A stretch of DNA of 64,000 nt from Janthinobacterium sp. J1-1 (lineage in GTDB: Bacteria; Pseudomonadota; Gammaproteobacteria; Burkholderiales; Burkholderiaceae_D). This document shows, piece after piece, positions 1-15,692 of the stretch (position 1 is its first letter; each line of letters begins with the position of its first letter). Below the pieces are notes generated by a model. That model was not told the origin of the DNA. It saw only the letters and a program-made list of their open reading frames with translations, and made no database searches. The DNA is taken from assembly GCF_030944405.1 (NCBI RefSeq), contig NZ_CP132339.1:744001-808000 (forward strand), read 5' to 3'. The position numbers and the translations under genes are program-made.

Positions 1-50
1 AAGGCGGCCGTACCGTTGGTGCTGGTGTCGTTGCAAAAATCCTGGCTTAA
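1..50 (+). CDS. tuf: Elongation factor Tu, C-terminal end (partial)
   Basis: Only the last 15 codons are in the window. The frame from base 3 reads GGRTVGAGVVAKILA and stops at TAA 48-50, which matches the conserved C-terminus of EF-Tu (domain 3). EF-Tu carries aminoacyl-tRNA to the ribosome as a GTP complex. A tuf copy directly upstream of rpsJ is the usual str/S10 arrangement in betaproteobacteria. The gene is cut by the window edge, not broken. Confidence 0.93.
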   Translation, partial: GGRTVGAGVVAKILA

Positions 51-134
51 TTCATAAGCCTATATAAGAAGAAGACGCGTCGTCGCCCGGCGCCCTTCTT
101 TTTGTTCAACTGCCGGGGTAGGCAAGCATTTTGG

Positions 135-143
135 TGCTATCAT
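135..143 (+). promoter_or_regulatory. Candidate extended -10 element upstream of rpsJ
   Basis: The sequence TGCTATCAT fits an extended -10 (TGn followed by TATCAT) about 90 bases before the rpsJ start. No good -35 is visible at 17 bp. The tuf-rpsJ spacer also holds a weak GA/CT-rich hairpin around 66-101. rpsJ may therefore have its own start in addition to read-through from tuf. This is a visual call only. Confidence 0.3.
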
Positions 144-231
144 GTCGACCCTGACGGTTGTTGTGTCAGAAATTCCCCGTATGACCTCATTGCCGTGCAG
201 ACCGCGCGGTTCGTTCTTTTAAGGAAATATC

Positions 232-549
232 ATGTCGGCACCAAACCAAAAAATCCGTATCCGCCTGAAGGCTTTCGATTACAAGCTGATCGACCAGTCC
301 GCCCTGGAAATCGTTGAAACCGCGAAGCGCACCGGCGCTGTCGTCAAAGGCCCAGTACCGCTGCCTACCCGTATTCAGCGTTTCGATGTGCTGCGTTCCC
401 CGCACGTCAACAAAACTTCGCGCGATCAGTTCGAGATCCGTACGCACCAACGCCTGATGGACATCGTTGACCCAACGGACAAAACCGTTGACGCGCTGAT
501 GAAGCTGGATCTGCCAGCTGGTGTTGATGTCGAAATCAAACTGCAATAA
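232..549 (+). CDS. rpsJ: 30S ribosomal protein S10 (NusE)
   Basis: The 105-residue product begins [20 protein letters not shown] and contains the S10 signature around [19 protein letters not shown]10 is part of the 30S head and, as NusE, a transcription antitermination factor that binds NusB and NusG. The ATG at 232 is preceded by AAGGA at the right distance. In almost all bacteria the next gene is rplC; here a strong terminator follows and rplC lies 13.5 kb downstream, so rpsJ is separated from the rest of the S10 operon. Confidence 0.97.
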
Positions 550-596
550 TCGATTCAAGGTGGCGGCCGGGGTTTCCTGACCGCCAGCTGATAAAA

Positions 597-637
597 AGCC
601 GGGCCTCTTCACGATCGTGGACAGGCCCGGTTTTTTT
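597..637 (+). terminator. Rho-independent terminator after rpsJ
   Basis: An 8-bp perfect GC-rich stem (CCGGGCCT at 599-606 with AGGCCCGG at 623-630) is followed by seven T residues (631-637). It closes the tuf-rpsJ transcript and is direct evidence that the S10 operon does not continue through here. Confidence 0.93.
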
Positions 638-935
638 ACGTCCAGGCAGGTACCTGTCTATACGTTCCGAGCCGGGGCCAGGCAGTGCGCACTATGACAA
701 TATGGAAAAATTTATTTTAATTCATTGCTAAATGGGCATTGAATATGATTCCAGAAAACAACAGACCACGCACAAAATGAGTCAATCATCACAATATCCG
801 GCTTTTTCCCTTTGCAGGGCTACTTCGATGTGAGAAATTCATGGCGCACGTTACAAAGTACGATGTTCTTACAAGGAATATCACTTGCTCGTGTCGACAA
901 TTCATACAATAGAAAACGACAGCTCGGGAGTAGTC
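638..935. other. Intergenic region upstream of the TonB-dependent receptor
   Basis: No gene is seen in this stretch. It is AT-richer than its surroundings around 700-760. A possible sigma-70 promoter is TTCATT (721-726), 17 bp, TATGAT (744-749). No convincing Fur box was found. The start of the spacer (646-655) holds a short GGCAGGTACCTG palindrome. The receptor start must lie near the 3' end, where both TTG 885 (AAGGA upstream) and TTG 936 (GGGAG upstream) are candidates. Confidence 0.4.
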
Positions 936-3755
936 TTGAATAAATCTGCAATCAACAAACCAGGTTTTAAAAAAAGCACCATTGCAATCGCATTGACCTT
1001 GGCATTTTCGCAACATGCATTCGCACAACAAGCTGCAGAACCTGTAGAAAAAATCCAACGCGTCGAAGTCACCGGTAGTAGCATCAAGCGTACCGAAGCG
1101 GAAGCGGCTGGCTCGGTCCAGATCCTGACCCGCGATGACATCGAGCGTACCGGTGAAACCACCGCGCTGGGCATCCTCAATTCCTCGTCCGCCGTCAGCA
1201 CCTCGATCGACTCGGCCAACAGCAGCTCGGGCAGCTTTGCCACGGGTTCGTCGGGCGTGGGCATGCGCGGCCTGGGCAAGGTCGCCACCCTGGTGCTGGT
1301 CAACGGCCGCCGTATTGCACAATATGGCCTGGCTGACGGGGCACAACAGAATTTCACCAACCTGGATGCGATTCCAGCTTCCGCCATCGACCACATCGAG
1401 ATCCTGAAAGACGGCGCGTCGGCCATCTACGGTTCCGACGCCATCGCCGGCGTGATCAACATCATCCTGTTGAAAAACTTCGAAGGCGCGAAGATTACCG
1501 CCAACTACAAGGAATCGGACGGTTTCAACGATCAGCGCAACCGCAATGTGTCGGGTATCGTCGGTTACGGCGATATCGACAAGGACGGTTTCAATACCTA
1601 CCTGACGTACGAAGCCTACAAGAGCGACGGCTTTACCACCGGCGACCTGAAGAGCCACTATCCGGAATGGCACCGCCAGACCCCGGGCCGTTCGACCTGG
1701 GATGCGCTGAGCTCGTTCTCGCCTACCGGTAACTACTACCGCAGCAGCACCAATATCGTCGCTGCGCCAGGCTGCCCGACCGCCAATATCGACCCGAAAG
1801 ACGGCCTGTGCAAGATGGACGTCCTGCCGTACACCGGCCTGGCCACCAATGCCAAACGCTATGCGCTGGCCAGCAACACGCACTTCCGCATCGGCAAGGA
1901 TATCGACGCCAACTTCGAGATCACCAATGCCGGCGCCAGCAACGACTACATCGTTGCGCCATTTAACGTCAGCAACGGCAGCGCCACCACCTCGTCGAGC
2001 ACCTGGTATGACGCGATCAACGGCAAGATGGTTGGCCCGTTCTTCTATCCGAAGCTGCCAGTCGGCCATGCGATGAATCCTTACTCGGTCGCCACGGAAT
2101 ACCGTGCCCGCATGATGGACACCGGTAACGGCTTCAACTTCAACCGTACCGAATCCGACCAGACCCGCGTCATGCTGAGCCTGAACGGCGATATCGGCAA
2201 CTTCGACTGGAAATCGGCTGCCGGCTACATGAACTCGAAAGCGACCAAGGCCACCCGTGCCGCGAGCGCCAAAGGTTACACCGACGCCATCGTCAACGGT
2301 ACCTACAAGTTCGGCCAGCAAAATGATCCTGCGCTGCTCGAATCGATGTTCCCGGTCCGCACCACCAAGGGTGAATCGAAGATCGCTTTCATCGACGCGA
2401 CCGTGTCCGGTGAAGTGGCGCAACTGCCTGCCGGTCCGCTGAGCGTGGCATTTGGTACCGATATCCGTCAGGAAAAGTATGAAATGGCCAGCTCGGACAA
2501 CGTGCTGCGTGGCGAACTGGTCGGCATCGCCGGCCTGCAAGTCAAAGACAAGATGGATCACTACGCGCTGTTCGCCGAAGCGACCATCCCTGTCATCAAG
2601 CGCGTCGAGCTGAACGCTGCGTTACGTGCCGACAAATCGACCAACAGCGACGTGCACTTCTCGCCGAAACTGGGCTTGCGCGTGAACGCGACCGACAACT
2701 TGTTGTTGCGCGCTACCGCATCGGGTGGTTTCCGCGCACCAAACGTCGTGGAAACTGGTAACGGCCTGGGCCGTAGCTCGTTCGCGACCAGCATCAACGA
2801 TCCAAAACGCTGCTCGACCGCCAATACGCTGAACAACCTGGTGCAAAGCAATCCGAATGCCACCACCGCCGACAAGGCGCAGGCCAACAGCTTCCGCAGC
2901 GGCGATTGCGTCGGTGGCGTGCCGACTTTCGTGTCGTCGAACAAGGACCTGAAACCGGAAACCTCGCGTTCGATCACGGCCGGCTTCGTGTTCGAGCCAG
3001 TAAAAAACTGGACCGTGGCACTGGACTACTACCATATCGAACGCAAGGACGAAATCGGTACCCGTGCGGTATCGGACATCCTGCGCGGCGAAGATAGTCT
3101 GGCACCAGGTCAGTTGATTCGTGTCGACAACACCGCTGCTGATGCGCAATTCCTGTCACTGGTGAAGAAATACGCTCCAACCAATACCGTCAACTTCGGT
3201 AACGTTGGCGTGATCGGTCTGTTGTACAACCCATACGTCAACAGCGGCCGTACCCGTGCTTCGGGCTTCGACTTTGATGCGTCGGGTCGCTTCAATACCG
3301 CCATCGGCCAGGTACGTCTGAAACTGGAAGGTACTTACCAGTGGAAATATCAGGAATTCAGCGTCACTGACAATGCCTATGACACCAATATGGCAGGTAC
3401 CTATGACATGGGTTCGCGCCTGAGAACCAAGCTGCGCGCCAGCCTGAAATCGGGTGCCTTCGACCACGGCGTGACCGTCAACTACGCCAGCGGCTACAGC
3501 AACAACAGCCTGTCGTCGCCGACCTACTGCGTCACCAACAAGGTAGCCGCCGAAAACATGTCGGCTTGCGAACGCGTTGGCAGCAACACGACGTTCGACT
3601 ACAACCTGTCGTACAACGGTATCAAAAATACCCGTATCAGCCTGTACGTGGACAACCTGTTCGAAAAAGATGCGCCGATTCAATGGCGTGCCGGCTACGC
3701 CGACACGTTCCAGATGCGTCGTATCGGCGTCACCGCCAGCTACACCTTCCTCTGA
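936..3755 (+). CDS. TonB-dependent outer-membrane receptor, substrate unknown
   Basis: This outer-membrane active transporter takes up a ligand using energy from TonB-ExbBD. With the TTG at 936 (GGGAG five bases upstream) the protein has 939 residues. It starts with a signal peptide (MNKSAINKPGFKK, a hydrophobic core, AFA cleavage near residue 30), then a TonB-box-like EKIQRVEVTGS. The plug domain at about 45-180 contains VLVNGRRI and IEILKDGASAIYGSDAIAGV. A long beta-barrel ends in ASYTFL. TTG 885, with AAGGA upstream, would add 17 residues before the signal peptide and is less likely. It stands alone, with no siderophore genes or sigma/anti-sigma pair next to it, so the substrate cannot be read from context. 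Large antisense frames here are shadows. Confidence 0.9.
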   Translation: MNKSAINKPGFKKSTIAIALTLAFSQHAFAQQAAEPVEKIQRVEVTGSSIKRTEAEAAGSVQILTRDDIERTGETTALGILNSSSAVSTSIDSANSSSGSFATGSSGVGMRGLGKVATLVLVNGRRIAQYGLADGAQQNFTNLDAIPASAIDHIEILKDGASAIYGSDAIAGVINIILLKNFEGAKITANYKESDGFNDQRNRNVSGIVGYGDIDKDGFNTYLTYEAYKSDGFTTGDLKSHYPEWHRQTPGRSTWDALSSFSPTGNYYRSSTNIVAAPGCPTANIDPKDGLCKMDVLPYTGLATNAKRYALASNTHFRIGKDIDANFEITNAGASNDYIVAPFNVSNGSATTSSSTWYDAINGKMVGPFFYPKLPVGHAMNPYSVATEYRARMMDTGNGFNFNRTESDQTRVMLSLNGDIGNFDWKSAAGYMNSKATKATRAASAKGYTDAIVNGTYKFGQQNDPALLESMFPVRTTKGESKIAFIDATVSGEVAQLPAGPLSVAFGTDIRQEKYEMASSDNVLRGELVGIAGLQVKDKMDHYALFAEATIPVIKRVELNAALRADKSTNSDVHFSPKLGLRVNATDNLLLRATASGGFRAPNVVETGNGLGRSSFATSINDPKRCSTANTLNNLVQSNPNATTADKAQANSFRSGDCVGGVPTFVSSNKDLKPETSRSITAGFVFEPVKNWTVALDYYHIERKDEIGTRAVSDILRGEDSLAPGQLIRVDNTAADAQFLSLVKKYAPTNTVNFGNVGVIGLLYNPYVNSGRTRASGFDFDASGRFNTAIGQVRLKLEGTYQWKYQEFSVTDNAYDTNMAGTYDMGSRLRTKLRASLKSGAFDHGVTVNYASGYSNNSLSSPTYCVTNKVAAENMSACERVGSNTTFDYNLSYNGIKNTRISLYVDNLFEKDAPIQWRAGYADTFQMRRIGVTASYTFL

Positions 3756-3803
3756 TCGGCGCCAGCTGACAGATGACCGCCCGGCAGCGATGCCGGGCAC
3801 ATG

Positions 3804-3833
3804 AAAAACCAGGCCTCGCGCCTGGTTTTTTTT
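3804..3833 (+). terminator. Terminator of the receptor gene, with an IS in its T-tract
   Basis: The stem AACCAGGC (3807-3814) pairs with GCCTGGTT (3820-3827) and is followed by a run of eight T (3826-3833). The terminal repeat of the 3834-8573 element begins directly after the last T. A second run of seven T lies at 8574-8580 beyond its far end, so the T-tract looks like the duplicated target site. Confidence 0.9.
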
Positions 3834-3856
3834 CTAGGGCGGCACATTCTGCTTAC
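3834..3856 (+). repeat. Left terminal inverted repeat of the outer IS
   Basis: It begins CTAGGGCGGCACATT. Aligned with the reverse complement of 8551-8573 it matches at 17 of 23 positions. It lies directly after the terminator T-tract. Confidence 0.75.
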
Positions 3857-3928
3857 CTCTCCCGCGGGCACTATTGAAGCGCGTTGCTGTCCAAGGTCGC
3901 ATGGGAATCTTCCTCAAGGAGAGCGATC

Positions 3929-4342
3929 ATGTCAGGACGTCCTATCCGTGGCGAAGCCGAGTGTCAGTACACGCTGGCACTTCAATGCGCCGACTGCGCC
4001 GCATGCGCACAGCGCATGCCGACGACATATACCAAGACCCGCAAGCTGGTGACGATGCATGGGCTGATCCAGTTGCGCTTGCAAATCCGCCGCTGCGAGA
4101 ATGCCCAATGCCCGCGCTTCCATCAAGTCTGCCATCCCGAGGAAGAAGGCCGCTGGGCGTTACCCAAGCAGGAATTCAGCTTCGATGTGGTGCTGCGCGT
4201 GGGGCAGTTGCGTTATCGCGAACATCGCTCTTGTCCCGAGATCTTCCAGCAGTTGCGCCAGGAAGGTGTCGACCTGGCCGAACGCAGCGTCTCGAACCTG
4301 CTGACGCAGTACGATATTCTGCTCAGCCTGGCACTCGATACC
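3929..4342 (+). pseudogene. 5' part of the outer IS transposase (split by IS66)
   Basis: The ATG at 3929 follows AAGGAGAG with good spacing and encodes 138 residues before the IS66 junction. Paired cysteines (CADCAAC and RRCENAQC, about residues 20-65) suggest a zinc-binding N-terminal domain. A helical region follows (FDVVLRVGQLRYREHRSCP, then EIFQQLRQEGVDLAERSVSN), which looks like a DNA-binding HTH. Translation would run into the IS66 end and stop at 4355-4357. The reading frame resumes exactly at 7381 when the insert and one TSD copy are removed (LLSLALDT joins LPERAAQL). Confidence 0.85.
4335..4342 (+). repeat. Target-site duplication, left copy (TCGATACC)
   Basis: These 8 bp are identical to 7373-7380 on the other side of the IS66 element. 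Eight-base duplications are typical of the IS66 family. The perfect match suggests a fairly recent insertion. Confidence 0.97.
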
Positions 4343-4369
4343 GTAAGCGCTCCATAAACCACAGCCTTG
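4343..4369 (+). repeat. Left inverted repeat of the IS66 element
   Basis: It starts GTAAGCGCTCCATAAACC. It pairs with the reverse complement of 7346-7372, with differences at positions 8, 19 and 22. The GTAA start is typical of IS66-family ends. Confidence 0.95.
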
Positions 4370-4423
4370 TGGCGTAATCCCGATTTCCGCATGCTTGCCG
4401 TTTCAATTTGAACGGGAGCAAGC

Positions 4424-4747
4424 ATGGAAGGCGACACCGAATTCTGGACCTCACATATCGAGGCCTGCCGCCGTGAAGGCATGGCGGCGAGCGTATATGC
4501 ACGGCAGCATGGCCTGACGCTGGCGTCGCTGTACTACTGGCGGCGCAAGTTGACGCGGGCCGCAGTAACCGGCGCCGATGGCGCGGCGAAGCAATTTGTC
4601 GCCCTGCGCGTGGTTGATATGGCAGTTGGCACCGCAACCGGCACGTGCACTCTGGTGCTGCGTTCCGGTCTGTGCCTGGAGCTGGCCGCGCTGCCGCCGC
4701 CAGCCTGGCTGCTGGCCCTCGACCAAGCCCACGCGGGAGTGCGCTGA
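4424..4747 (+). CDS. tnpA: IS66 accessory protein TnpA
   Basis: This is a 107-residue protein of the IS66 OrfA type, with a helix-turn-helix-like segment YARQHGLTLASLYYWRRKL at about residues 25-45. It is one of three proteins that IS66-family elements need to transpose. Its stop TGA overlaps the tnpB start (TGATG), so the two are probably translationally coupled. It is upstream of tnpB and tnpC in the standard order. Confidence 0.92.
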   Translation: MEGDTEFWTSHIEACRREGMAASVYARQHGLTLASLYYWRRKLTRAAVTGADGAAKQFVALRVVDMAVGTATGTCTLVLRSGLCLELAALPPPAWLLALDQAHAGVR

Positions 4748-5103
4748 TGCACCCGGGCTGCCGCATCGACCAGGTGTTTTTATGCCGCGACCCGGTCGAC
4801 TTCCGCAAGTCCATCGGCGGTCTGTCGGTGCTGGTCGAGCAGGCGCTGGGACTTGATCCGTTCGGCAACGCGCTGTACGTGTTCATCAACCGCGACCGCA
4901 ACAAGATCAAGGTGTTGTACTGGCACCGTAACGGCTTCTGTCTGTGGCTCAAGCGGCTCGAAGCGGAGAAATTCGCGTGGCCGCGCGACGCCGACGGCGC
5001 CACGCAAGGCGTCACGCTGCAGCAGTTCGAGTGGCTGCTGGAAGGCTTCGATGTGTGGCAGAAACCACCCCATAAAACCCTGCATTTCAGTTCTGTTTCA
5101 TAG
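4747..5103 (+). CDS. tnpB: IS66 accessory protein TnpB
   Basis: The 118-residue protein has the TnpB (Orf2) family core: CRDPVDFRKSIGGLSVLVEQ, then LDPFGNALYVFINRDRNKIK, then VLYWHRNGFCLWLKRLE. The ATG at 4747 overlaps the tnpA stop. Its exact role in IS66 transposition is unknown, although the family is required for it. Length is normal for the family. Confidence 0.94.
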   Translation: MHPGCRIDQVFLCRDPVDFRKSIGGLSVLVEQALGLDPFGNALYVFINRDRNKIKVLYWHRNGFCLWLKRLEAEKFAWPRDADGATQGVTLQQFEWLLEGFDVWQKPPHKTLHFSSVS

Positions 5104-5109
5104 GAGAAT

Positions 5110-6771
5110 TTGGTAAACTACGGCATGCCTGCCACCACCGCCAAACCGTCCAACCTGCCGCCGCGCTACAGCCTTCCAGAGCTGACGCTACCTGCCGTGT
5201 TGCCGACCGACGCGGCGGGCCTGACGGCGTTGCTGCACTCGGTCATCGCCGCGCACCACGACGTCAAGACACAGGCGATGAACCACATGCAGCACATGCT
5301 GGAACAGTTCGTCCTGGCGCGCCACCGCATGTTCGGCGCCAGCTCGGAACAGTCGTCAGCCCAAGGCCGCTTGTTCGACGAGGCCGAGGCGTTGGCCGCT
5401 GGCAGTGATGCAACGCAGGATGTGGCGCCGCTGCCGCCGGATAACAAGCAGGATGCCAAATCGAACAGCAAACCGGGGCGTGGCAAGCGCAGCCCGTTGC
5501 CGTCCGAGTTAAAACGCGTCGATATCGTGCACGATGTGCCAGCCGCCGAACGTACTTGCCCGTGCGGCACGCCGATGGTGGAAGTCGGCGAGGACGTCAG
5601 CGAGCAACTCGACCTGGTGCCAATGCAGGTGCGCGTGCTGCGCCACATCCGCAAGCGCTACGGCTGCCCCGGCAGTGCCCACGCGCCGGTGACGGCGGCG
5701 TTGCCGCCCCAACCCCTGCCCAAGAGCAACGCCAGCGCCGATTTGCTGGCCATGCTGCTGGTGGTCAAGTTCATCGATGGCCTGCCACTGGCGCGCTTTG
5801 AACATATATTGGCTCGCCACGGCGTGACGGTGCCGCGCCAGACGCTGGCGCGCTGGGTCATCGGCGCGGCCGGCGTGCTGCAGCCGTTGCTCAACCTGAT
5901 GCGCGACACCTTGCTCGACGGCCCGTTCCTGCACGTCGACGAAACGGTGGTGCAGGTGCTCAAGGAAGCGGGCAAGACGCCGACCTCGAACAGCTATATG
6001 TGGGTGCAAACGGGCGGGCCGCCGGGGCGGCCGGTGGTGGTGTTCGACTACGATGCGAGCCGCAGCGGGCAGGTGCCGCTGCGCCTGCTGCACGACTACC
6101 GGGGTTACGTGATGACCGACGGCTACAGCGGCTATAACGAGTTGATGCGTACCGATGGCATCGAGCAGCTCATTTGCTGGGCGCACGTGCGTCGCCGGTT
6201 CGTCGAGGCGGTCAAGGTGCAGCCCAAGGGCAAGCGCGGGCTGGCCGACGAGGCCGTTGCCATGATCGGCAAGCTGTACGGCATCGAGCGCGACCACCAG
6301 GATGCCGATGACGCCACGCGCCTGCTGGCACGGCAAACCCACAGCGTGCCGGTGCTGGCGGCGCTGCGGACGTGGCTCGACCAGACGCTGCCGGGCGTAA
6401 CGCCGAAGAGTGCGCTCGGCACGGCGCTGTCGTACCTGCGCGATTACTGGCCGCGCCTGACACGCTACACGGAGCGCGGGGACCTGCCGATTGACAACAA
6501 CCGTGCCGAAAACGCGATCCGCCCGTTCGTCGTCGGTCGCAAGGCCTGGCTGTTCAGCGACACGGTGGCCGGCGCCAATGCCAGCGCCGTCATCTACTCG
6601 GTGCTGGAGACGGCCAAGGCGAACGGGGTGGAACCTTACACCTGGTTGCGGCGCGTGCTGCGTGACCTGCCGGCGGCGAACACCGTGGATCAGGTCGAGG
6701 CGCTGCTGCCGTGGAATGTGAGCGCACTCGACCACGGCCAGAGCGTGACACCGATGGGCGTGCTGCAATGA
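5110..6771 (+). CDS. tnpC: IS66 transposase TnpC
   Basis: This is the DDE transposase of the element. The N-terminal helical region (about 30-90) is followed by a zinc-binding segment with CPCG near residue 152 and a second cysteine at RYGC. The catalytic core has HVDETVV (first D), MTDGYSGY (second D) and DNNRAENAIRPFVVGRKAWL with the catalytic E. The C-terminus has the YTWLRRVLRDLP tail common in IS66. The TTG at 5110 lies close behind AGGAG; ATG 5125 is an alternative. The stop overlaps the start of the next gene (ATGA). At 553 residues it is full length. Confidence 0.94.
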   Translation: MVNYGMPATTAKPSNLPPRYSLPELTLPAVLPTDAAGLTALLHSVIAAHHDVKTQAMNHMQHMLEQFVLARHRMFGASSEQSSAQGRLFDEAEALAAGSDATQDVAPLPPDNKQDAKSNSKPGRGKRSPLPSELKRVDIVHDVPAAERTCPCGTPMVEVGEDVSEQLDLVPMQVRVLRHIRKRYGCPGSAHAPVTAALPPQPLPKSNASADLLAMLLVVKFIDGLPLARFEHILARHGVTVPRQTLARWVIGAAGVLQPLLNLMRDTLLDGPFLHVDETVVQVLKEAGKTPTSNSYMWVQTGGPPGRPVVVFDYDASRSGQVPLRLLHDYRGYVMTDGYSGYNELMRTDGIEQLICWAHVRRRFVEAVKVQPKGKRGLADEAVAMIGKLYGIERDHQDADDATRLLARQTHSVPVLAALRTWLDQTLPGVTPKSALGTALSYLRDYWPRLTRYTERGDLPIDNNRAENAIRPFVVGRKAWLFSDTVAGANASAVIYSVLETAKANGVEPYTWLRRVLRDLPAANTVDQVEALLPWNVSALDHGQSVTPMGVLQ

Positions 6772-7277
6772 GCCGGATCTCATCGCCGACGCTCGCCGAC
6801 GCCATCAAAGTCGTAAGGGCCATGGGCATCGAGCAAAAAGAGGTACTGGCCAACGAATTGTTCGAGCGGCAGCCAAACCTGTTCGGCTCGGCGCTCGCAC
6901 TCCACCGCATGGGTGTCGCCCCGGCAAAAATCGAGGTGGTGCTTGATCTGCTGTTCATCTGCTTCCAGTCAATGAAGCAGTCGGGGCTACGCTGGCCATT
7001 GATCACCGAGGCTGACCTGGACAAGCAATTAGGACGCTATGTCGCCACAGTGCGGTTTGGTGAAGACCTGGCCTTGGCACAACGCCAGCGCGCCATGACG
7101 CAATATCTCGAATCCCATCCGGAAAAACCGCTGCTCGCCTATGTCACCGACGAGCTCAACAAATGGTTGGCCGGCATCACACCCGAAGCGACCGACAACT
7201 ACGTTATGCTCGCCGCCATGAACTTCGTCAACTGTATCGCATTCACTCCGATCCCGAAGCCCGCGAAGCGAACCTGA
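6768..7277 (+). CDS. Passenger protein of unknown function in the IS66 element
   Basis: The gene encodes 169 residues, and its ATG overlaps the tnpC stop (ATGA), so it is translated with the transposase. The sequence is mostly helical (MSRISSPTLADAIKVVRAMG at the start), with no signal peptide, membrane segment or metal motif that I recognise. A near-C-terminal segment (NYVMLAAMNFVNCIAF) is hydrophobic but not a clear membrane helix. It lies between tnpC and the right inverted repeat, inside the element, so it moves with it. It is not part of the core IS66 trio; a regulatory or target-choice role would be a guess. Confidence 0.7.
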   Translation: MSRISSPTLADAIKVVRAMGIEQKEVLANELFERQPNLFGSALALHRMGVAPAKIEVVLDLLFICFQSMKQSGLRWPLITEADLDKQLGRYVATVRFGEDLALAQRQRAMTQYLESHPEKPLLAYVTDELNKWLAGITPEATDNYVMLAAMNFVNCIAFTPIPKPAKRT

Positions 7278-7345
7278 ACGACCTTGCCTGGTTCGTGAGG
7301 CATGGACTTCAATGCCACCATCATGCCGGCAAGAAGATTAGCGGG

Positions 7346-7372
7346 CAAGGTTGGGGTTTATGGATCGCTTAC
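7346..7372 (-). repeat. Right inverted repeat of the IS66 element
   Basis: Read on the minus strand it starts GTAAGCGATCCATAAACC and matches the left end with three differences in 27 bases. The apparent in-frame ATGs at 7351 and 7360 lie in this repeat and are not the true start of the downstream transposase fragment. Confidence 0.95.
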
Positions 7373-7380
7373 TCGATACC
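7373..7380 (+). repeat. Target-site duplication, right copy (TCGATACC)
   Basis: The 8 bp are identical to 4335-4342 and lie directly after the right inverted repeat of the IS66 element. Confidence 0.97.
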
Positions 7381-8573
7381 TTGCCCGAACGCGCCGCGCA
7401 ACTGGCTGCCCAGGGACGCGCGATCCTTGCCATTGACGGCCTGCAGCCCGATGTGGGCCATGAGGTCTTGTGGGTGGTACGCGACACGCTGTCCGGGCAA
7501 GTGCTGTGCGCGCGCAGCCTGCTGTCATCGGCGCGTGCCGAGCTGCAATGCCTGCTGGCCGACGTGACGGCCGCCCTGCCGGTGCCCGTGGTGGCGGTCG
7601 TGTCCGACGGCCAGCACAGTATCCGCCAGGCGGTCGCTGCCGCCCTGCCCGGGGTGCCGCATCAACTGTGCCAATTTCACTACTTGAAGGAAGCGGCGCG
7701 TCCCTTGTGGGAGGCGGACCGGCATGCCAAGAAAGAGCTCAAGAAACTGGTGCGTGGTGTGCGCCCGCTGGAACGCGTTGCCGAACAACGGCCCGGGCCG
7801 ACCGGCGAAGTCGCCCTGGGATACTGCGCGGCGGTGCGCAGCGCGCTGACCGATGACGCGCGCGCACCGCTGGTCTTTGGCGGCTTGCGCTTGCACGAAC
7901 AGCTCTCCGGCATCCATGCCAGCGCGCGGCGCGCCGCGCAAAAAAGGGGGCGCCCACGGAAGTGAAGCGCCTGGCCGGCATGCTCGGGCGCGCCCTGAGC
8001 AGTACCGCACGATGGTGGCCGCAGGTGGCGCAAGGCGCGGCCTGGGTGCAGGGCGCGAGTGCGATCCTGCGCAATGACGAGGGGCTATCGGCGGATGCGC
8101 TCATGGTGCGTTATCGGGACTGGCTCGCGCAAATGGACAGCGCCACGGAGTGCCCCGACCTGCCCGACACCTTGCGCAAGGCCCTGTCGCACTTCGTCAA
8201 GGTGAGCGCCAGTTACGGCGGCGATGTGTTCCATTGTTACCGCATTGCCGGACTGCCCCGCACGAACAATGCGCTGGAGCAGGCCTTCGGCAGCCTGCGC
8301 TACCACGAACGGCGTGCCAGTGGCCGCAAGGTGGCCTCGCCTTCACTGGTGCTCAGTGGCAGTGTGCGCATGCCGGCAGCGCTGTTTACCCGGACCGGCA
8401 CGGTGACGCGCGACATGCTCGCCGCCGTACCGCAAGACCGATGGCGCGCGACGCGCGCCGACCTGGAGCGGCGTCGCCAGGCGCGCTGCCAGCGCCATCG
8501 TTTCCGCAAGGATCCCGCCCACTATCTGGCGGGACTGGAGAAACTGTGCGATGAGCTAAATGTGCTGACCTAG
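7381..8573 (+). pseudogene. 3' part of the outer IS transposase, with a -1 frame change
   Basis: This continues the frame of 3929-4342. Its DDE core shows AIDGLQPD (first D), VVSDGQHS (second D), CQFHYLKEA and, in the second half, PRTNNALEQAF, which probably holds the catalytic E. The first frame stops at 7963-7965. The second half is open from before 7962 to the TAG at 8571-8573 in the -1 frame. A run of six A and five G (7940-7950) lies just before the stop, which suggests a one-base indel or slippage there. The GTG at 7962 overlaps the stop. Joined with the 5' part the protein would be about 535 residues. The final TAG lies inside the right terminal repeat. Confidence 0.82.
8551..8573 (-). 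repeat. Right terminal inverted repeat of the outer IS
   Basis: On the minus strand it reads CTAGGTCAGCACATT and matches the left end at 17 of 23 positions. Seven T (8574-8580) follow, mirroring the T-tract at the left end. Confidence 0.75.
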
Positions 8574-8641
8574 TTTTTTTGCGCCGTCGCCGCAGGGCGA
8601 TAGCGCTTTACAGTGTGGCGGGCGGGCGCTAAAGTTGCCGC

Positions 8642-9487
8642 ATGCTTAATGCTCTCGATACCCATCTGTTGAATGCGACGCCGCGTGGCGGCCTGCGCGG
8701 CTGGCCGCGTTTTTTGACCGAATTCCTGTATTTCGGCATCAAGGAGGCGAGGGCCTGCCTGTTCGTCGGGCTGTTCTTCGGCGCCGTGTTCCTGGTGCCG
8801 CGCACCGGCATCCTGGGCCTGCCGCGCTACGACGTGCTGCTGCTGGCGGCGCTGGCCATCCAGGGCACGATGGTCTGGGGCAAGCTGGAAACCTGGGATG
8901 AATTAAAGGCCGTGTGCCTGTTCCATGCGGTCGGTTTCGCGCTGGAGGTGTTCAAGGTATCGGGCGGCATCCAGTCCTGGAGCTATCCCGATTTCGCCTG
9001 GAGCAAGGTGTTCGGCGTGCCGCTGTTCTCGGGCTTCATGTACGCGGCCGTCGGCAGCTACATCATCCAGACCTGGCGCCTGCTCGACATGCGCATCCGC
9101 CACCATCCGCCGTACTGGATGGCGGTGACGATCGCGCTGCTGATCTATGCCAATTTCTTCACGCATCACTATATCGGCGACTACCGCTGGTACCTGGCCG
9201 CCTGCGCGCTGGGCCTGTATGCCCGCACCACGGTGGTATTCCGTCCGCTCGACCGCGACCGCGGCATGCCCTTGCTGCTTGGCTTCGTGCTGGTCGGCTT
9301 TTTCATCTGGCTGGCCGAAAACATCAGCACCTTCTGGGGCGTGTGGCGCTACCCGAACCAACTGGGCGCCTGGTCGGCGGTGCACGTGAGCAAATGGAGC
9401 TCATGGTCGCTGCTGGTGGTGATGACGTTTACCATCATCGCCCACCTCAAGCACATCAAGCACAGTATTCACGTCGCGCGTGCTTGA
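8642..9487 (+). CDS. DUF817 family integral membrane protein
   Basis: This 281-residue inner-membrane protein has about seven or eight hydrophobic helices. The conserved stretches (LFHAVGFALEVFKV, WSYPDFAWSKVFGVPLFSGF, YRWYLAACALGLYART and WLAENISTFWGVWRYPNQ) match the DUF817 (B. subtilis YoaT-like) family from memory. No function is established for the family. It is monocistronic between the outer IS and a convergent lipoprotein gene, so the context says nothing about its job. Confidence 0.8.
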   Translation: MLNALDTHLLNATPRGGLRGWPRFLTEFLYFGIKEARACLFVGLFFGAVFLVPRTGILGLPRYDVLLLAALAIQGTMVWGKLETWDELKAVCLFHAVGFALEVFKVSGGIQSWSYPDFAWSKVFGVPLFSGFMYAAVGSYIIQTWRLLDMRIRHHPPYWMAVTIALLIYANFFTHHYIGDYRWYLAACALGLYARTTVVFRPLDRDRGMPLLLGFVLVGFFIWLAENISTFWGVWRYPNQLGAWSAVHVSKWSSWSLLVVMTFTIIAHLKHIKHSIHVARA

Positions 9488-9498
9488 TCCGGTGATCC

Positions 9499-10059
9499 TT
9501 ATTTCAGGATGGCGGCCGTCTCCATGAAGCGCTTGCCGAGCGCCGCCTGCGGGCCACCCTGCAGCTGTTTCGCGTACTGGCGCAAGACCTCGGCCGAGTA
9601 GGTGCGCGAGGTGTCGGACAGCTTGTGCAGCAGCGGCAGCGAACGCTCCAGGTAGGCGCTGCCTTCCTGCCATTTGCCTTGCGCCGACAGGGCCGACGCC
9701 AGTTCCACCAGGCGCCGGCCGATGCGCGCATCGCTGCGCGGCAGGGCCGCTTCCTCGGTGGCCAGCGCCTGCTTGTACAGCGCTTCGGCTTCCACATGCT
9801 TGCCCAGCAAGCGCTTGATGCGGCCCAGGTTGTACTGGCGCTGCGACAGCAGTTCATCTTTCGCGCCGGCCTTGACGGCGCTGTCGAGCGCCTGCTTGCA
9901 GGCCAGTTCGGCTTCGGCCAGCTGGCCCTTGAGCTCGGCCGCATTGCAGGCGTCGTGCTGCATGCTGGAGGCGGCGATCGCCGGGGCCGGATCGGGAGTG
10001 GTGGCGCAGGCGGCCAGCAGGCTGGCGGCGCATAACAGGCTGATGGTGGATGTCTTCAT
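9499..10059 (-). CDS. TPR-containing lipoprotein
   Basis: The 186-residue product begins with a lipoprotein signal peptide whose lipobox is LLAAC (Cys 18), so it is predicted to be lipid-anchored in the envelope. The mature part is helical, with repeats of tetratricopeptide type (AEALYKQALATEEAALPRSD, then LVELASALSAQGKWQEGSAY). GAGG lies five bases upstream of the ATG. An AT-rich stretch at 10105-10135 in the divergent spacer to creB could hold its promoter. The binding partner is unknown. Confidence 0.75.
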   Translation of the reverse strand: MKTSTISLLCAASLLAACATTPDPAPAIAASSMQHDACNAAELKGQLAEAELACKQALDSAVKAGAKDELLSQRQYNLGRIKRLLGKHVEAEALYKQALATEEAALPRSDARIGRRLVELASALSAQGKWQEGSAYLERSLPLLHKLSDTSRTYSAEVLRQYAKQLQGGPQAALGKRFMETAAILK

Positions 10060-10254
10060 GATTTCCTCGTACGGGCGGTGGACACAGGTACATCTCTTGG
10101 GAAGGTATGATTAAATATACTATAACTAATTTACTGTGAGCATTTTTTTGCGCGCTTATGCGCGCTGCCCCACACGCTTCATCCTGTTCCTGCGATTGAC
10201 GCTGCTTGCCCGCTTCAGGGATACTCCGTTCTCCTCATCCACTACGGCGCCGCC

Positions 10255-10956
10255 ATGACCCGCACCATCCTGATCGTCGAAGATGAACAGGCGATCGCCG
10301 ACAGCATCGCCTATGCGCTGCGCACCGATGGTTTCACGCCGCGCCACGTGATGCTCGGCGAGCAGGCGCTTGCCGTCTTGCGCAGTGAGGATGCGCCACA
10401 GCTGGTGGTGCTCGATATCGGCCTGCCCGACATGAGCGGGCTGGAGGCATGCCGCCAGCTGCGCCAGTTTTCGGACGTGCCGGTGATCTTCCTGACCGCC
10501 CGCAGCGATGAAATCGACCGCATCGTGGGGCTGGAAATCGGCGCCGACGATTATGTGACGAAACCGTTTTCGCCGCGCGAACTGGTGGCGCGCATCCGCG
10601 TCATTTTGCGCCGCGCCAGGGTGGCGCAGACGCCGCCGGACGCTGGCAAGCCGATAGTCGCCGGCGCTTCCGGCTTTGAATTGCGGGGCCTGGAAGCGCG
10701 CGTGCTGTTCCACGGCCAGCCGCTGGACCTGACCCGCTACGAATACCTGCTGCTGAAAACCCTGCTCGAGCATCCCGGCCACGTGCTGTCGCGCGCGCAG
10801 CTGATGGAGCGCGTCTGGAGCGGCGCGCCCGACACGCTCGAGCGCACGGTCGACGCGCATGTCAAATCGCTGCGCGCCAAGCTGCGCGCCGTCGATGCGC
10901 GGGAAGAGCCGATCCAGACCCACCGCGGCCTGGGCTACAGCCTGGCCGGCGCCTGA
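10255..10956 (+). CDS. creB: Response regulator CreB (OmpR family)
   Basis: The receiver domain (residues 1-120) has the acidic pair EDE, the phospho-acceptor in VVLDIGLPDMSG (about Asp 54) and the conserved Lys in DDYVTKPFSPREL. A winged-helix DNA-binding domain follows (about 135-233, LTRYEYLLLKTLLEHPGHVL to the C-terminal TVDAHVKSLRAKLR). The assignment to CreB rests on the next two genes being a CreC-like kinase and CreD, in the E. coli order. In E. coli CreBC responds to carbon metabolism and controls creD. No full TTCAC-N6-TTCAC operator was found in front of this gene. Confidence 0.87.
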   Translation: MTRTILIVEDEQAIADSIAYALRTDGFTPRHVMLGEQALAVLRSEDAPQLVVLDIGLPDMSGLEACRQLRQFSDVPVIFLTARSDEIDRIVGLEIGADDYVTKPFSPRELVARIRVILRRARVAQTPPDAGKPIVAGASGFELRGLEARVLFHGQPLDLTRYEYLLLKTLLEHPGHVLSRAQLMERVWSGAPDTLERTVDAHVKSLRAKLRAVDAREEPIQTHRGLGYSLAGA

Positions 10957-10957
10957 C

Positions 10958-12379
10958 ATGAAGATCGGCCTGCGCATCCTGTGCGGCTATTTCCTGGTGG
11001 TGGGCCTGGCCGCGTGGTTCCTGCTCAATGTGTTCATGGAGCAGGTCAAGCCCGGCGTGCGCTCGACCCTGGAAGACACCCTGGTCGACACCTCGCAGCT
11101 GCTGGCCGCGCTGGTGGCGAACGATATCCGCGATGGCCGCCTCGACGACTCGGTGGTGCTGCAGCGCATGCAGCACTATGCGCAGCGGGCCATCGACGTG
11201 AATATCAACGGCGTGCGCAAGCGGACGCTCGACTACCGCATCTATATCACCGACCGGCATGGCGTGGTGCTGTTCGATACCAGCGGGCGCGACGTGGGAA
11301 AAGACTATTCGCGCTGGAACGATGTGTATCTCACCTTGCAGGGGAAATACGGCGCGCGCAGCACGCGTTCGATTCCGGACCAGGACATGTCGACCGTGAT
11401 GCACGTGGCCGCGCCGATCCGCGATGGCGACGCCATCATTGGCGTGCTGACGGTGGCCAAGCCGAACGCCAGCGTGCAGGCCTTTGTGGAGCGCAGCCAG
11501 CGCATCATCCTGCAGCGCGGCGCGATCCTGCTGCTGCTTTCCTTGCTGATCGGCCTGGCGTTCGCGTGGTGGTTGCACCATGCGCTGGGCAAGCTGATGG
11601 ACTATATCGCCGCCGTGGAGGACGGCCGCAAGGTGGCGCTGCCGGCGCTGGGGCGCAGCGAGATCGGCATCCTGGGCCGCGCGCTGGACGCCATGCGCAC
11701 GCGGCTGGAAGGCAAGGAATATGTCGAGCAGCTGATGCACACCTTGACGCATGAACTGAAAAGCCCGATCGCCGCCATCCAGGCCTCGGCCGAGCTGCTG
11801 CAGGAAGACATGCCGGCCGCCGAACGCACGCGTTTCCTGGGCAATATCCTCGAGCAGAACGCGCGCCAGCGGCAGCTGATCGACAAGCTGCTGGCCCTGG
11901 TGCGGGTGGAAAAGCAGCAGCGCCTCGACGCTCCCGAACCGATCGCGGTGGCGCCGCTCCTGGAACAGGTGGCGCAGGATGCGGCCGCCTCGCTGGCGGC
12001 GCGTGGCGTGCTGCTGGAGGTCAGCCTCATCGACGCCATGGTGGCCGGCGACGCCTTGCTGCTGCGCCAGGCGCTGGGCAACCTGCTCGACAACGCGATC
12101 GGTTTTGCGCCGCCGGGCAGCCGCATCGAGCTGCGGGCGCAACGGGCAGGGCAGGGAGTCGAGATCAGCGTGCGCGACCGCGGCGAGGGCATCCCGGCGT
12201 ATGCGCAGGAGCGCGTGTTCGACCGTTTCTATTCGCTGCCGCGTCCGTCCTCCGGCAAGAGCACGGGCCTGGGCCTGCCCTTCGTGCGCGAGGTGGCCTC
12301 CTTGCATGGCGGTACGGTCACCGTGGGCAACCATGCGGACGGCGGCGCCGTGGCGCGCCTGTGCCTGCCGCTGGCCTGA
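10958..12379 (+). CDS. creC: Sensor histidine kinase CreC
   Basis: This 473-residue inner-membrane kinase has a first membrane helix at about 7-27, a periplasmic sensor region (about 28-180) and a second helix around LLLLSLLIGLAFAWWLHHAL. The H-box is LTHELKSPIAAIQASAELL, the N-box LGNLLDNAIGFAPPG, and the G-boxes are DRGEGIP and TGLGLPF. The ATG at 10958 lies one base after the creB stop. It phosphorylates CreB. The full set of catalytic motifs is present. Confidence 0.88.
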   Translation: MKIGLRILCGYFLVVGLAAWFLLNVFMEQVKPGVRSTLEDTLVDTSQLLAALVANDIRDGRLDDSVVLQRMQHYAQRAIDVNINGVRKRTLDYRIYITDRHGVVLFDTSGRDVGKDYSRWNDVYLTLQGKYGARSTRSIPDQDMSTVMHVAAPIRDGDAIIGVLTVAKPNASVQAFVERSQRIILQRGAILLLLSLLIGLAFAWWLHHALGKLMDYIAAVEDGRKVALPALGRSEIGILGRALDAMRTRLEGKEYVEQLMHTLTHELKSPIAAIQASAELLQEDMPAAERTRFLGNILEQNARQRQLIDKLLALVRVEKQQRLDAPEPIAVAPLLEQVAQDAAASLAARGVLLEVSLIDAMVAGDALLLRQALGNLLDNAIGFAPPGSRIELRAQRAGQGVEISVRDRGEGIPAYAQERVFDRFYSLPRPSSGKSTGLGLPFVREVASLHGGTVTVGNHADGGAVARLCLPLA

Positions 12380-12461
12380 ATTTTTTCCCGCTTCACACAG
12401 AACGCATCATCAGCGCATACAGGTTTTCTAGACTGGCCGCCTTACCTACAAGGAATGCGCC

Positions 12462-13871
12462 ATGCAAAAAACTTTACTCATCAAAGCGCTGATCGTGTTC
12501 GGCCTGATGCTGCTGATCGGCCTGCCCCTCCTGATGATCCAGGAGACCATCAAGGAGCGCATGCAGTTCCGCCAGGAAGCGGTCGACAGCATCGCCGCCG
12601 ATTCCGTGCGCGAGCAAACCATCATCGGCCCCATCCTCGTGATTCCGTATGTGGAGCAGTATGACGAGCGGGTCGAGATCGCCGCCGACAAGGACCAGAA
12701 AAGCAGCGTGCCGGCGCGCACCGAAGTGCAGCGCCGCGTGATGCAGCGCCGCCTGCTGGTGTACCCGAACAACCTGCTGCAGAACGGCACCATCGAGACG
12801 GACCGCCGCTACCGCGGCATCCACCAGGTGCTGGTCTACAGCGGCCAGCATGCCTTCAGGGGCGACTTCACGGTGCCGGGCCTGGATCAGTTGCCGCGCA
12901 AGACGGCCGACGCGCGCATCGCCGTCGGCCAGCCCTTTATCGCGCTGTCGATCGAGGACGTGCGCGGCATCCGCAATATCCCGAAGATCGACTGGGGCGG
13001 GCGCCTGATCGAGTTCGAGCAGGGCACCAAGCTGTTTGCCTTCCGCAGCGGCCTGCACGCGCCGCTGGGCGCCATGCCGCTGGCAGCGGCGCAGCAGGTC
13101 AAGTTCAGCTTCGACCTGGGCCTGAGCGGCATCGAACGCCAGCATTTCGTGCCGGTGGCGAAGAACAACCAGGTCAGCATGAAGTCGAACTGGCCCCATC
13201 CGCAGTTTGGCGGGCGCTTCCTGCCATCGCCGAAATATCGTCAGATCAATGCCGACGGCTTCCAGGTCGAATGGGACATCTCGTCGCTGGCCTCGAATGC
13301 GCAAACCCAGCTGTCAAGCATCGAAGGCGAATTCAAGGCGCCCGACAGCGCGCCGCTGGGCCAGGTCGACCGTTTCAGTGTGGGCTTCATCGAGCCGATC
13401 AATGTATATACACAGTCGGACCGCGCCACCAAATACGGCCTGCTGTTCGTGGCGCTGACGTTTGCCGCCTTCTTCATCTTCGAGATATTGAAGAGCCTGC
13501 CGATCCACCCGGTGCAGTATCTGCTGGTCGGCCTGGCCCTGGTGATCTTCTTCCTGCTGCTGGTGGGCCTGGCCGAGCATATCGCTTTCTGGATGGCGTA
13601 TGCAATCGCGAGTGCCGCCTGTATCGCACTGACCAGCTTTTACCTCACCTACGTGCTGCGCAGCGTGGGCCGCGCGCTCGGCTTTGGCGTGGCGCTGACG
13701 GCCCTTTATGGCGCCCTGTATGGCCTGCTGAACTCGGAAAACAACGCCCTGATCATGGGCAGCATCCTGCTGTTCGCCGTGCTGGCGGCCGTGATGGTGG
13801 TGACGCGCAAGGTCGACTGGTACCAAGTGGGGAAGGGTGCTGCTTTGCCCGCCGGAAAGGCGCATGAATAG
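12462..13871 (+). CDS. creD: Inner-membrane protein CreD
   Basis: The 469-residue protein starts with one membrane helix (about 8-27), has a long non-membrane domain (about 30-310) and ends in a cluster of about five helices (about 320-460). This is the CreD layout, and the segment IGPILVIPYVEQY is characteristic. In E. coli and Pseudomonas CreD is the main target of CreBC and affects envelope integrity and beta-lactam response. The spacer from creC contains one TTCAC half site (12392-12396) but not the second half of the Cre tag. CDS length is typical. Confidence 0.9.
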   Translation: MQKTLLIKALIVFGLMLLIGLPLLMIQETIKERMQFRQEAVDSIAADSVREQTIIGPILVIPYVEQYDERVEIAADKDQKSSVPARTEVQRRVMQRRLLVYPNNLLQNGTIETDRRYRGIHQVLVYSGQHAFRGDFTVPGLDQLPRKTADARIAVGQPFIALSIEDVRGIRNIPKIDWGGRLIEFEQGTKLFAFRSGLHAPLGAMPLAAAQQVKFSFDLGLSGIERQHFVPVAKNNQVSMKSNWPHPQFGGRFLPSPKYRQINADGFQVEWDISSLASNAQTQLSSIEGEFKAPDSAPLGQVDRFSVGFIEPINVYTQSDRATKYGLLFVALTFAAFFIFEILKSLPIHPVQYLLVGLALVIFFLLLVGLAEHIAFWMAYAIASAACIALTSFYLTYVLRSVGRALGFGVALTALYGALYGLLNSENNALIMGSILLFAVLAAVMVVTRKVDWYQVGKGAALPAGKAHE

Positions 13872-13909
13872 CCGCCGCACGGCCGATTTGTGTTACCTTA
13901 TCGCTCCTT

Positions 13910-13935
13910 CGCGGCAATGCCGGCAACTTGCCGCG
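13910..13935 (+). terminator. GC-rich hairpin after creD
   Basis: The arms CGCGGCAA (13910-13917) and TTGCCGCG (13928-13935) form a perfect 8-bp stem with a 10-base loop. No T-tract follows, so this is at best a weak or factor-dependent terminator for creD. It lies directly upstream of the rplC promoter. Confidence 0.45.
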
Positions 13936-13975
13936 GAGCGCACAACAACACTTTGACATACCTCGTGTTAACTTG

Positions 13976-14004
13976 TTGCGTCAAGGGTTTTTGTGCTATA
14001 TACT
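13976..14004 (+). promoter_or_regulatory. Sigma-70 promoter of rplC and the distal S10 operon
   Basis: A -35 TTGCGT (13976-13981) and a -10 TATACT (13999-14004) are separated by 17 bp. A perfect TTGACA also occurs just upstream (13953-13958). The leader to the rplC ATG would be about 85 bases. A promoter is needed here because rpsJ ends in a terminator 13.3 kb upstream and creD is unrelated. Confidence 0.75.
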
Positions 14005-14097
14005 AGCCGGCTTCGGTATGGATTCGTCCTTTTTTGAGTCCTACGTTATTTGTAGTTAAACAAGCCCCGCCCAATCGCAGGTGGGAATGGAGAAAAA

Positions 14098-14754
14098 ATG
14101 AGCCTAGGCCTTCTCGGTCGCAAGGTTGGTATGATGCGCATTTTCACGGACGAAGGGGATTCGATTCCTGTCACCGTGCTGGACGTATCGAACAACCGTG
14201 TTGCGCAAATCAAAACCCCTGAAACAGATGGTTACTCCGCTGTTCAGGTCGCATTCGGTCAACGTCGCGCTTCCCGCGTGACCAAAGCTGTTGCTGGTCA
14301 TCATGCTAAAGCTGGCGTTGAAGCCGGTACTCTGTTGAAAGAGTTCCGTGTTGATGCTGCTAAAGCCGCCGAATTGAAAGCTGGCGATGTCGTCGCTGCT
14401 TCCCTGTTCGAAGTCGGTCAAAAGATCGACGTGCAAGGCGTTACCATCGGTAAAGGCTATGCAGGCGTTATCAAACGTTACCACTTCGCTTCTGGCCGTG
14501 CAACGCACGGTAACTCGCGTTCGCACAACGTTCCAGGTTCCATCGGTATGGCGCAAGATCCAGGTCGTGTTTTCCCTGGTAAGCGCATGACCGGTCATCT
14601 GGGTGACGTTAACCGTACGATCCAGAACCTCGTGATCGCCCGTATCGATGCCGACCGTCAGCTGCTGCTGGTCAAAGGCGCGATTCCAGGCGCGAAAAAT
14701 GGCCAGGTAGTTGTCTCGCCAGCCATCAAAACCAAAGCCAAGAAGGGAGCTTAA
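14098..14754 (+). CDS. rplC: 50S ribosomal protein L3
   Basis: The 218-residue protein starts [20 protein letters not shown] and contains the long extension that reaches the peptidyl-transferase centre, with [18 protein letters not shown]. The glutamine in that segment is the site that PrmB methylates in E. coli. GGAG lies six bases ahead of the ATG. In this genome it is the first gene of the distal S10 operon, because rpsJ has been separated. Confidence 0.97.
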
Positions 14755-14757
14755 ACG

Positions 14758-15378
14758 ATGGAACTCAAGCTTCTGAATGCGCAAGGTCAAGCCGGCTCCA
14801 ATGTCGTCGCTGCTGATGAAATTTTCGGCCGTGATTACAACGAAGCGCTGATCCACCAAGTCGTGATCGCTTATCAAGCGAATGCACGTAGCGGTAACCG
14901 CAAGCAAAAAGACCGTGAAGAAGTTCACCACACGACCAAAAAGCCATGGCGCCAAAAAGGTACCGGCCGCGCTCGTGCTGGTATGTCGTCGTCGCCACTG
15001 TGGCGCGGCGGTGGTCGGATTTTCCCGAACTCGCCTGACGAAAACTTCACCCACAAAGTGAACAAAAAAATGTATCGCGCAGGTGTCTGCTCGATCCTGT
15101 CGCAGCTGGCTCGCGAAGAGCGCCTGATCGTCATCGACGATCTGACGATCGACGCGCCAAAAACCAAGCTGCTGTCGCAAAAATTGAACGGCCTGGGCTT
15201 TGATTCGGTTCTGATCATCACCGACGTTCTGAACGAAAACCTGGAACTGGCATCGCGCAACCTGCCTAACGTACTCGTCGTTGAGCCACGTCACGCTGAC
15301 CCGATGTCCCTGGTGTTCTACAAGAAGATCCTGGTCACCAAAGCTGCACTGGCCAAGATTGAGGAGATGCTGGCATGA
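14758..15378 (+). CDS. rplD: 50S ribosomal protein L4
   Basis: The 206-residue protein has the L4 exit-tunnel loop signature [20 protein letters not shown] at about residues 62-81. It binds 23S rRNA domain I. In gammaproteobacteria L4 represses its own operon; no equivalent leader can be claimed here. The last codon overlaps rplW (ATGA). Confidence 0.97.
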
Positions 15379-15692
15379 GCGCGATTTTGAAACATAGCGA
15401 AGAACGCTTGATGAAGGTGCTGTTGGCGCCCGTGATTTCCGAGAAGGCCACCATGGTCGCGGAAAAGAACGAGCAAATTGTATTCCGCGTTCTGCCGGAT
15501 GCAACCAAGCCTGAAATCAAGGCAGCAGTCGAACTGCTGTTCAAGGTCGAAGTTCTGTCCGTGCAAACTGCAAACCGCGAAGGCAAGCAGAAACGCACCG
15601 GCAAGTTCAACGGTCGTCGTAACCATACCAAGCGTGCTTTCGTGTGCCTGAAACCTGGCCAGGAAATCAACTTCTCCGAGGAGGCTGCATAA
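15375..15692 (+). CDS. rplW: 50S ribosomal protein L23
   Basis: The 105-residue protein shows the L23 pattern [11 protein letters not shown] and [21 protein letters not shown]. It sits at the tunnel exit and is the docking site for trigger factor and SRP. Its ATG overlaps the rplD stop by four bases and its TAA shares a base with the rplB ATG, so translation is coupled. An in-frame ATG lies 12 codons further in ([12 protein letters not shown]); the longer start is preferred because of the overlap. Confidence 0.96.

Follow-up and report, generated by a model that had tools for sequence, protein, structure and literature searches.

In a 64,000-nt stretch of the Janthinobacterium sp. J1-1 genome (contig NZ_CP132339.1, positions 744,001 to 808,000; hereafter the window), the S10 ribosomal-protein operon is opened between rpsJ and rplC. 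These two ribosomal-protein genes are usually adjacent, and their order is regarded as nearly inviolable. By gene match, rpsJ, encoding S10 (NusE), lies at 232-549 (+), and rplC, encoding L3 and heading the rplC-rplD-... unit, lies at 14098-14754 (+), leaving an interval of 13,548 bp (550-14097). Each gene has a single match across the 6.95-Mb genome, which upholds the 13.5-kb block described in the initial annotation.

Both ends of this interval carry regulatory signals. Downstream of rpsJ, the predicted intrinsic terminator was recovered at 593-637 (+): the segment 590-650 folds to -29.3 kcal/mol and ends in a U tract (z-score -5.35, with none of 200 shuffles as good). Upstream of rplC, the sigma-70 promoter proposed at 13976-14004 (+) is likewise present, as TTGCGT-17-TATACT. 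Neither was listed by simpler scans, whether a terminator scan with a loop limit of 8 or a strict consensus promoter scan. A short hairpin stands just before rplC at 14066-14085 (+; stem 14066-14071/14080-14085, loop CAATCGCA). At rpsJ, a boxA-like sequence, GTTCTTTTAAGGA, overlaps the ribosome-binding site at 213-225 (+) and has a hairpin predicted directly upstream of it (192-210, +).

Gap length across relatives

Surveys of gap length in the genus and the family led us to reject the idea that the split is unique to this genome. Both genes were found in 38 of the 40 genus genomes searched, a set that includes the window's own, and in every case they share a contig and strand. The gap between them ranges from 233 to 13,548 bp (median 6,118); it is 1.0-13.5 kb in 35 of the 38 and below 700 bp in three (G022, G032 and G002). 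An assembly join error is also very unlikely, as a gap of at least 1.0 kb on one contig and strand recurs in 34 of the 37 further genus genomes that have both genes, nine of them in single-contig assemblies. Contig C1 of G012 has rpsJ and a portion of rplC near each of its ends, at 16590 and 6345176; these are most likely the overlapping ends of an unclosed circle.

From a family sample of 145 genomes, 139 had both genes, four of them on different contigs or strands, which left 135 with gaps estimated to within tens of bases. These gaps fall at 130-385 bp in 95 genomes and at 2.3-42 kb in 40. All 40 long-gap genomes and all four unmeasured ones belong to five genera (g1, g4, g8, g14 and g31) of 33, and the remaining 28 genera with matches have short gaps throughout the sample.

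We also examined 80 named loci, which are Betaproteobacteria by title (a few labelled to phylum only) and overlap the genus set by at least one genome (L062 = L174). The gap is short in 66 (94-358 bp) and spans 1.5-8.6 kb in nine, and five have no rplC on the stretch examined. In this sample, the usual state of the rpsJ-rplC pair, whose order was initially described as among the most conserved in bacteria, is a separation by an intergenic gap of 94-358 bp. The nine long loci come from a Janthinobacterium, Oxalobacteraceae bacterium AB_14, Pseudoduganella buxea, Duganella rivi, Aquabacterium soli, Cupriavidus lacunae, Variovorax soli, a Pseudacidovorax metagenome-assembled genome (MAG) and Parasutterella muris. 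Outside the Janthinobacterium group, the inserted genes are in families not found in other lineages; the Variovorax soli and Pseudacidovorax blocks have one gene family in common. The junction has perhaps opened separately five or more times, a count that does not draw on a tree of these lineages. Four of the loci without rplC, from three Massilia and Duganella aceris, are covered for about 10 kb. The fifth, an Alcaligenaceae MAG (L134), shows no rplC in the 3 kb between rpsJ and its contig end and is a possible further opening. In contrast, none of 153 loci is open at the next junction, rplC-rplD, where the gap ranges from -17 to 84 bp.

Signals at the starts of rplC and rpsJ

We scored the flanking signals in the 38 genus loci, in 40 family loci (28 unsplit and 12 from other split genera), in the named loci and in 30 class loci, with expectations from shuffled sequences. 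The promoter pattern, TTG-N19-21-TAYAHT within 190 nt of rplC, occurs in 38/38 genus loci (0.5 expected), 23/28 unsplit family loci (0.4), 11/12 other split family loci (0.1) and 41 of 75 named loci (0.9), and is at chance in the class loci (1 versus 0.9). In the genus and unsplit family loci that have it, the pattern stands upstream of the rplC hairpin, which may lie in a 5′ untranslated region. Terminators after rpsJ that satisfy a strict rule are present in 9/28 unsplit family loci (1.0 expected), 15/38 genus loci (2.7) and 10/12 loci of other split genera.

Outside the window's genus, split genera have the terminator more often than unsplit family loci do, as might be seen if the block itself had uncoupled S10 in this lineage, with the insertion coming first and the terminator and promoter evolving later to rescue expression. 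A -10-like box before rpsJ, seen by eye in split loci, would also suit this order of events. Unsplit relatives, however, already carry the promoter pattern and the rplC hairpin, and the unsplit sister genome (G053, locus L190) has both promoter and terminator, so we consider an insertion-first history unlikely. Family members in which only 130-385 bp separate rpsJ from rplC also have the boxA-like leader of rpsJ, along with both rplC signals.

The hairpin, with an 8-nt loop of the form CAAUYGNW, precedes rplC in 155/155 loci: 75 named (all named loci containing rplC), 40 family, 38 genus and 2 class loci, the last two picked because they matched. This loose pattern was defined after the data had been seen, and the best-pairing loop match was used at each locus. 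The stricter loop CAATYGNA is found in 60 of 75 named loci and 77 of 78 genus and family loci; requiring at least four uninterrupted pairs as well leaves 57 and 77, respectively. Among the 30 class leaders, the strict-loop hairpin occurs in two. All six stem pairs form in 150 of the 155 loci, and five pairs form in the other five. Over 93 distinct sequences, 99.1% of stem cells are paired compared with 74.9% in shuffles, and cells with double changes number 102 against 22.1; all six pairs show double changes, and none of 500 shuffles reaches the covariation score. Sliding the stem partner lowers pairing to 22-50%. By eye, many relatives have a second hairpin of variable sequence upstream of the conserved one, which in the window folds at 14020-14041 (+).

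We then ran a covariance model of this hairpin on 140 whole genomes of the class, the window's own included. Because we applied strict filters and scored at most 50 candidates per genome, the match counts are lower bounds. The model gave at least 56 matches at E ≤ 1 and at least 13 at E < 0.01; the latter fall in 13 genomes, and all 13 lie directly upstream of rplC. Eleven of the 13 belong to orders other than the window's, and in three the rpsJ-rplC gap is only 48-84 bp. Like the ribosomal leaders reported by Eckert and Weinberg (2020, PMC7247131), the element is a conserved RNA structure, backed by covariation, upstream of ribosomal-protein genes.

Compared with Rfam 15 and with Table 1 of that paper, the rplC hairpin is apparently a previously undescribed RNA element. 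No Rfam family scores above its gathering threshold either across 1-16000 or within the rplC leader, where the sole match at E ≤ 5 over 171 nt is a CRISPR repeat (18.6 bits). None of the 20 motifs of Table 1, which is distinct from the earlier ribosomal leaders of Table S1, is a betaproteobacterial rplC leader; one leader in the paper, for L4 in Archaeoglobi, does precede rplC. At the level of titles and the starts of abstracts, no betaproteobacterial rplC leader is described among the literature matches listed. A motif named Burkholderiales-1 that has no Rfam accession is listed by Weinberg et al. (2010, PMC2864571), so the Rfam result does not fully settle the question of novelty.

The hairpin differs from the L4-controlled leader of E. 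coli, which heads the S10 operon mRNA ahead of rpsJ and governs the whole operon. In the window, the element is 20 nt long, lies upstream of rplC and 13.5 kb from rpsJ, and leaves rpsJ outside its unit. The same ribosomal-protein genes follow rplC in both systems, and control through an RNA leader is the kind to be expected (reviewed in PMC10931766).

S10 is NusE, and NusE together with NusB binds boxA. The boxA core GYTCTTT lies at 213-219, close to the rpsJ start; GYTCTTTNNAGGA has its sole match in the window at this site (0.01 expected), and the genome's own rRNA spacer carries TCGTTCTTTAACA. Within 60 nt of rpsJ, the core is found in 38/38 genus, 28/28 unsplit family, 12/12 other split family and 55 of 78 usable named loci (two of the 80 have too little upstream sequence). 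It is absent upstream of rplC (0/153 loci) and of rplD (0/153). A hairpin directly upstream of the core is present by one criterion in 38/38 genus, 39/40 family and 41/55 named loci, compared with 11.6, 9.4 and 19.2 in shuffles; a higher bar leaves 35, 33 and 26, against 2.2, 2.6 and 5.4.

Boxes of this kind are known to act in gene regulation: boxA-mediated repression has been shown for suhB in E. coli, and a boxA before rpsJ has been predicted in three genera in a survey that covered Gammaproteobacteria (Baniulyte et al. 2017, PMC5725501). The element at rpsJ likewise has its GYTCTTT core no more than 50 nt from the start of a gene for a Nus factor. Unlike those reported there, it is preceded by a hairpin, overlaps the ribosome-binding site, departs from the consensus and recurs across betaproteobacterial loci (55/78 usable named loci and 78/78 family and genus loci).

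Farther upstream lies the 3′ end of what we take to be tuf (EF-Tu), at 1-50 (+), which reads GGRTVGAGVVAKILA-stop. Between tuf and rpsJ, the stretch 64-190 holds a terminator-like hairpin (64-105, +; fold of 51-105, -18.5 kcal/mol, z-score -3.47) and then a -10-like box (TGCTATCAT), with similar sequence, by eye, in most genus loci inspected. Together, these features suggest that rpsJ may be monocistronic in the window. The tuf-rpsJ distance is smaller in many of the unsplit relatives inspected.

The distribution of these elements also bears on a neutral explanation, in which genes drift into an intergenic gap like any other and the leader elements have no function. The block genes are indeed ordinary and freely varying, the promoter pattern is missing from 5 of 28 unsplit family loci, and the whole leaders fold no better than shuffles. 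Against this, covariation of the hairpin stem extends across the class, the strong matches to the hairpin sit before rplC, the boxA-like core is found before rpsJ and not before rplC or rplD, and the rplC-rplD junction is never split in our loci. We regard neutral drift as improbable.

Content and history of the block

The content given in the initial annotation was largely borne out by a Pfam scan of 10 proteins, which identified the TonB-dependent receptor, the insertion sequences (ISs), DUF817, the TPR protein, a two-component pair and CreD; the nesting of the ISs is suggested by the order of open reading frames (ORFs). The TonB-dependent receptor (885-3755, +; PF00593, PF07715) is matched in 10 of the 38 genus blocks, the window's own included. 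Directly past it, at 3772-3833 (+), is a sub-threshold match to the small RNA SorX (27.8 bits against a gathering score of 46.6, E 0.0035). The IS region (3884-8573, +) appears to hold an IS66 element (about 4424-6771) between MULE/Mutator-like pieces. Its IS66 transposase lies at 5110-6771 (+; PF03050) and a MULE/Mutator-like transposase piece at 7351-7965 (+; PF10551/PF00872, below cut-off); the ORFs at 6813-7277 and 7962-8573 matched no family in the scan, which left out 3884-4357. A DUF817 protein follows (8642-9487, +; PF05675), and then a TPR protein on the opposite strand with a lipobox-like start, LLAAC (9499-10059, -; PF13424). Next are a response regulator (10255-10956, +; PF00072, PF00486) and a histidine kinase (10955-12379, +; PF00512, PF02518), called creB-like and creC-like from their position beside creD (12462-13871, +; PF06123, 480 bits).

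Block gene content differs widely among split loci. A creD match is present in 30 of the 38 genus blocks and in 3 of the 12 split blocks from other genera, and the IS proteins of the window are matched in none of the 37 remaining genus blocks. This distribution suggests that the block is an insertion whose content turns over and that part of its size in this genome is recent. Where the block lacks creD, in eight genus genomes, no CreD match occurs genome-wide, and two unsplit genomes have CreD elsewhere on the chromosome. We also noted a creD match with one in-frame TAA in G001 (C1:778932-780332). In another genus member (G008, locus L150), rplD gives two partial matches that overlap (89% over 0.73 of its length and 100% over 0.35), perhaps a frameshift or an assembly slip in this essential gene.

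On a FastTree phylogeny of the linked ribosomal-protein region (9,817 columns, 61 genomes, with composition warnings), the five split genera form one clade (SH-like support 100), whose sister is an unsplit genome with a 294-bp gap. From the named loci, this clade would comprise Janthinobacterium plus Massilia, Duganella and Pseudoduganella. Gap state requires at least four changes on the tree, which by parsimony fits one opening followed by three re-closures within Janthinobacterium. Repeated independent insertions in the Janthinobacterium-Massilia clade would account for the scarcity of creD in split blocks outside the genus, for blocks that differ so strongly in content and for short gaps nested within the genus. 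Four changes, on our interpretation, are also what one gain and three losses would give; creBCD lies in the interval in several genera, and the genus genomes lacking creD there lack CreD altogether. We therefore find repeated insertion rather doubtful, and more plausibly one ancestor of the five-genus clade gained genes at the junction, creBCD possibly among the earliest. Block content would then have turned over, with three re-closures within Janthinobacterium and enlargement of this genome's block by ISs.

Separate control of NusE and the rplC unit

We conclude that the 13.5-kb block probably occupies a regulatory seam of long standing, with a NusE-type rpsJ unit on one side and, on the other, an rplC unit that has a leader of its own. 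The proposal that S10/NusE is controlled apart from the other S10-operon proteins is supported by these sequence comparisons and would imply separate rpsJ and rplC transcripts; that this control is peculiar to the genome, or was caused by the block, is not. The separate signals appear to be old, widespread in the class and older than the block, which would make the block their consequence rather than their cause.

Several observations weigh against this conclusion. The strict-rule terminator is found in a minority of unsplit family and genus loci, so read-through from rpsJ to rplC may remain, and the promoter pattern is missing from 34 of 75 named loci. Since the hairpin is also present at gaps of 48-84 bp, it is on its own no proof of separate transcripts. 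Just two of the 43 weaker model matches (E 0.02-1) precede rplC (G307 and G301), the rest falling elsewhere as by chance, and a second, weaker match (20.0 bits) lies in the window's IS region at 8508-8541. As whole segments, neither the rplC leader (z-score -0.77) nor the rpsJ leader (184-231, z-score -1.08) folds more stably than shuffles. No similar hairpin was found in 23S rRNA, where one loop match, at position 1534, lacks a stem. At rpsJ, the published boxA consensus GYTCTTTAANA, found in full in the genome's own rRNA spacer (GTTCTTTAACA), is departed from at two positions in the window (GTTCTTTTAAG). The core is lacking upstream of rpsJ in 23 of 78 usable named loci, ten of them presumably Comamonadaceae by our assignment of genera to families and the rest Rubrivivax, Thiobacillus and MAGs, and in 30/30 class loci. 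Finally, the rarity of creD in split blocks outside the genus sits poorly with a single shared insertion.

By sequence, rpsJ has a leader of its own in most sampled Betaproteobacteria, with a hairpin and a boxA-like sequence at the ribosome-binding site, and rplC heads a unit with the conserved hairpin near its start and, in many of these bacteria, its own sigma-70 promoter. In the mechanism we propose, surplus S10 with NusB would bind the boxA-like site and lower rpsJ translation; a ribosomal protein of the rplC unit, L4 by precedent or L3, may bind the hairpin beside the ribosome-binding site and repress the unit. With the two genes already under separate signals, DNA inserted between them would cost little. 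We give about an even chance to a broader form of this proposal, in which the S10 operon of Betaproteobacteria and some neighbouring orders is divided by regulation into a self-limiting NusE unit with a boxA-type leader and an rplC unit under an undescribed ribosomal leader whose CAA..G loop is invariant, repeated physical breakage having followed.

As a candidate ribosomal leader, the rplC hairpin is short and covaries strongly. If the proposed division is correct, it would explain why the operon breaks at rpsJ-rplC and not at the next junction, as control would already be separate there, and it would likely link the supply of NusE to the rRNA antitermination machinery across much of a bacterial class.

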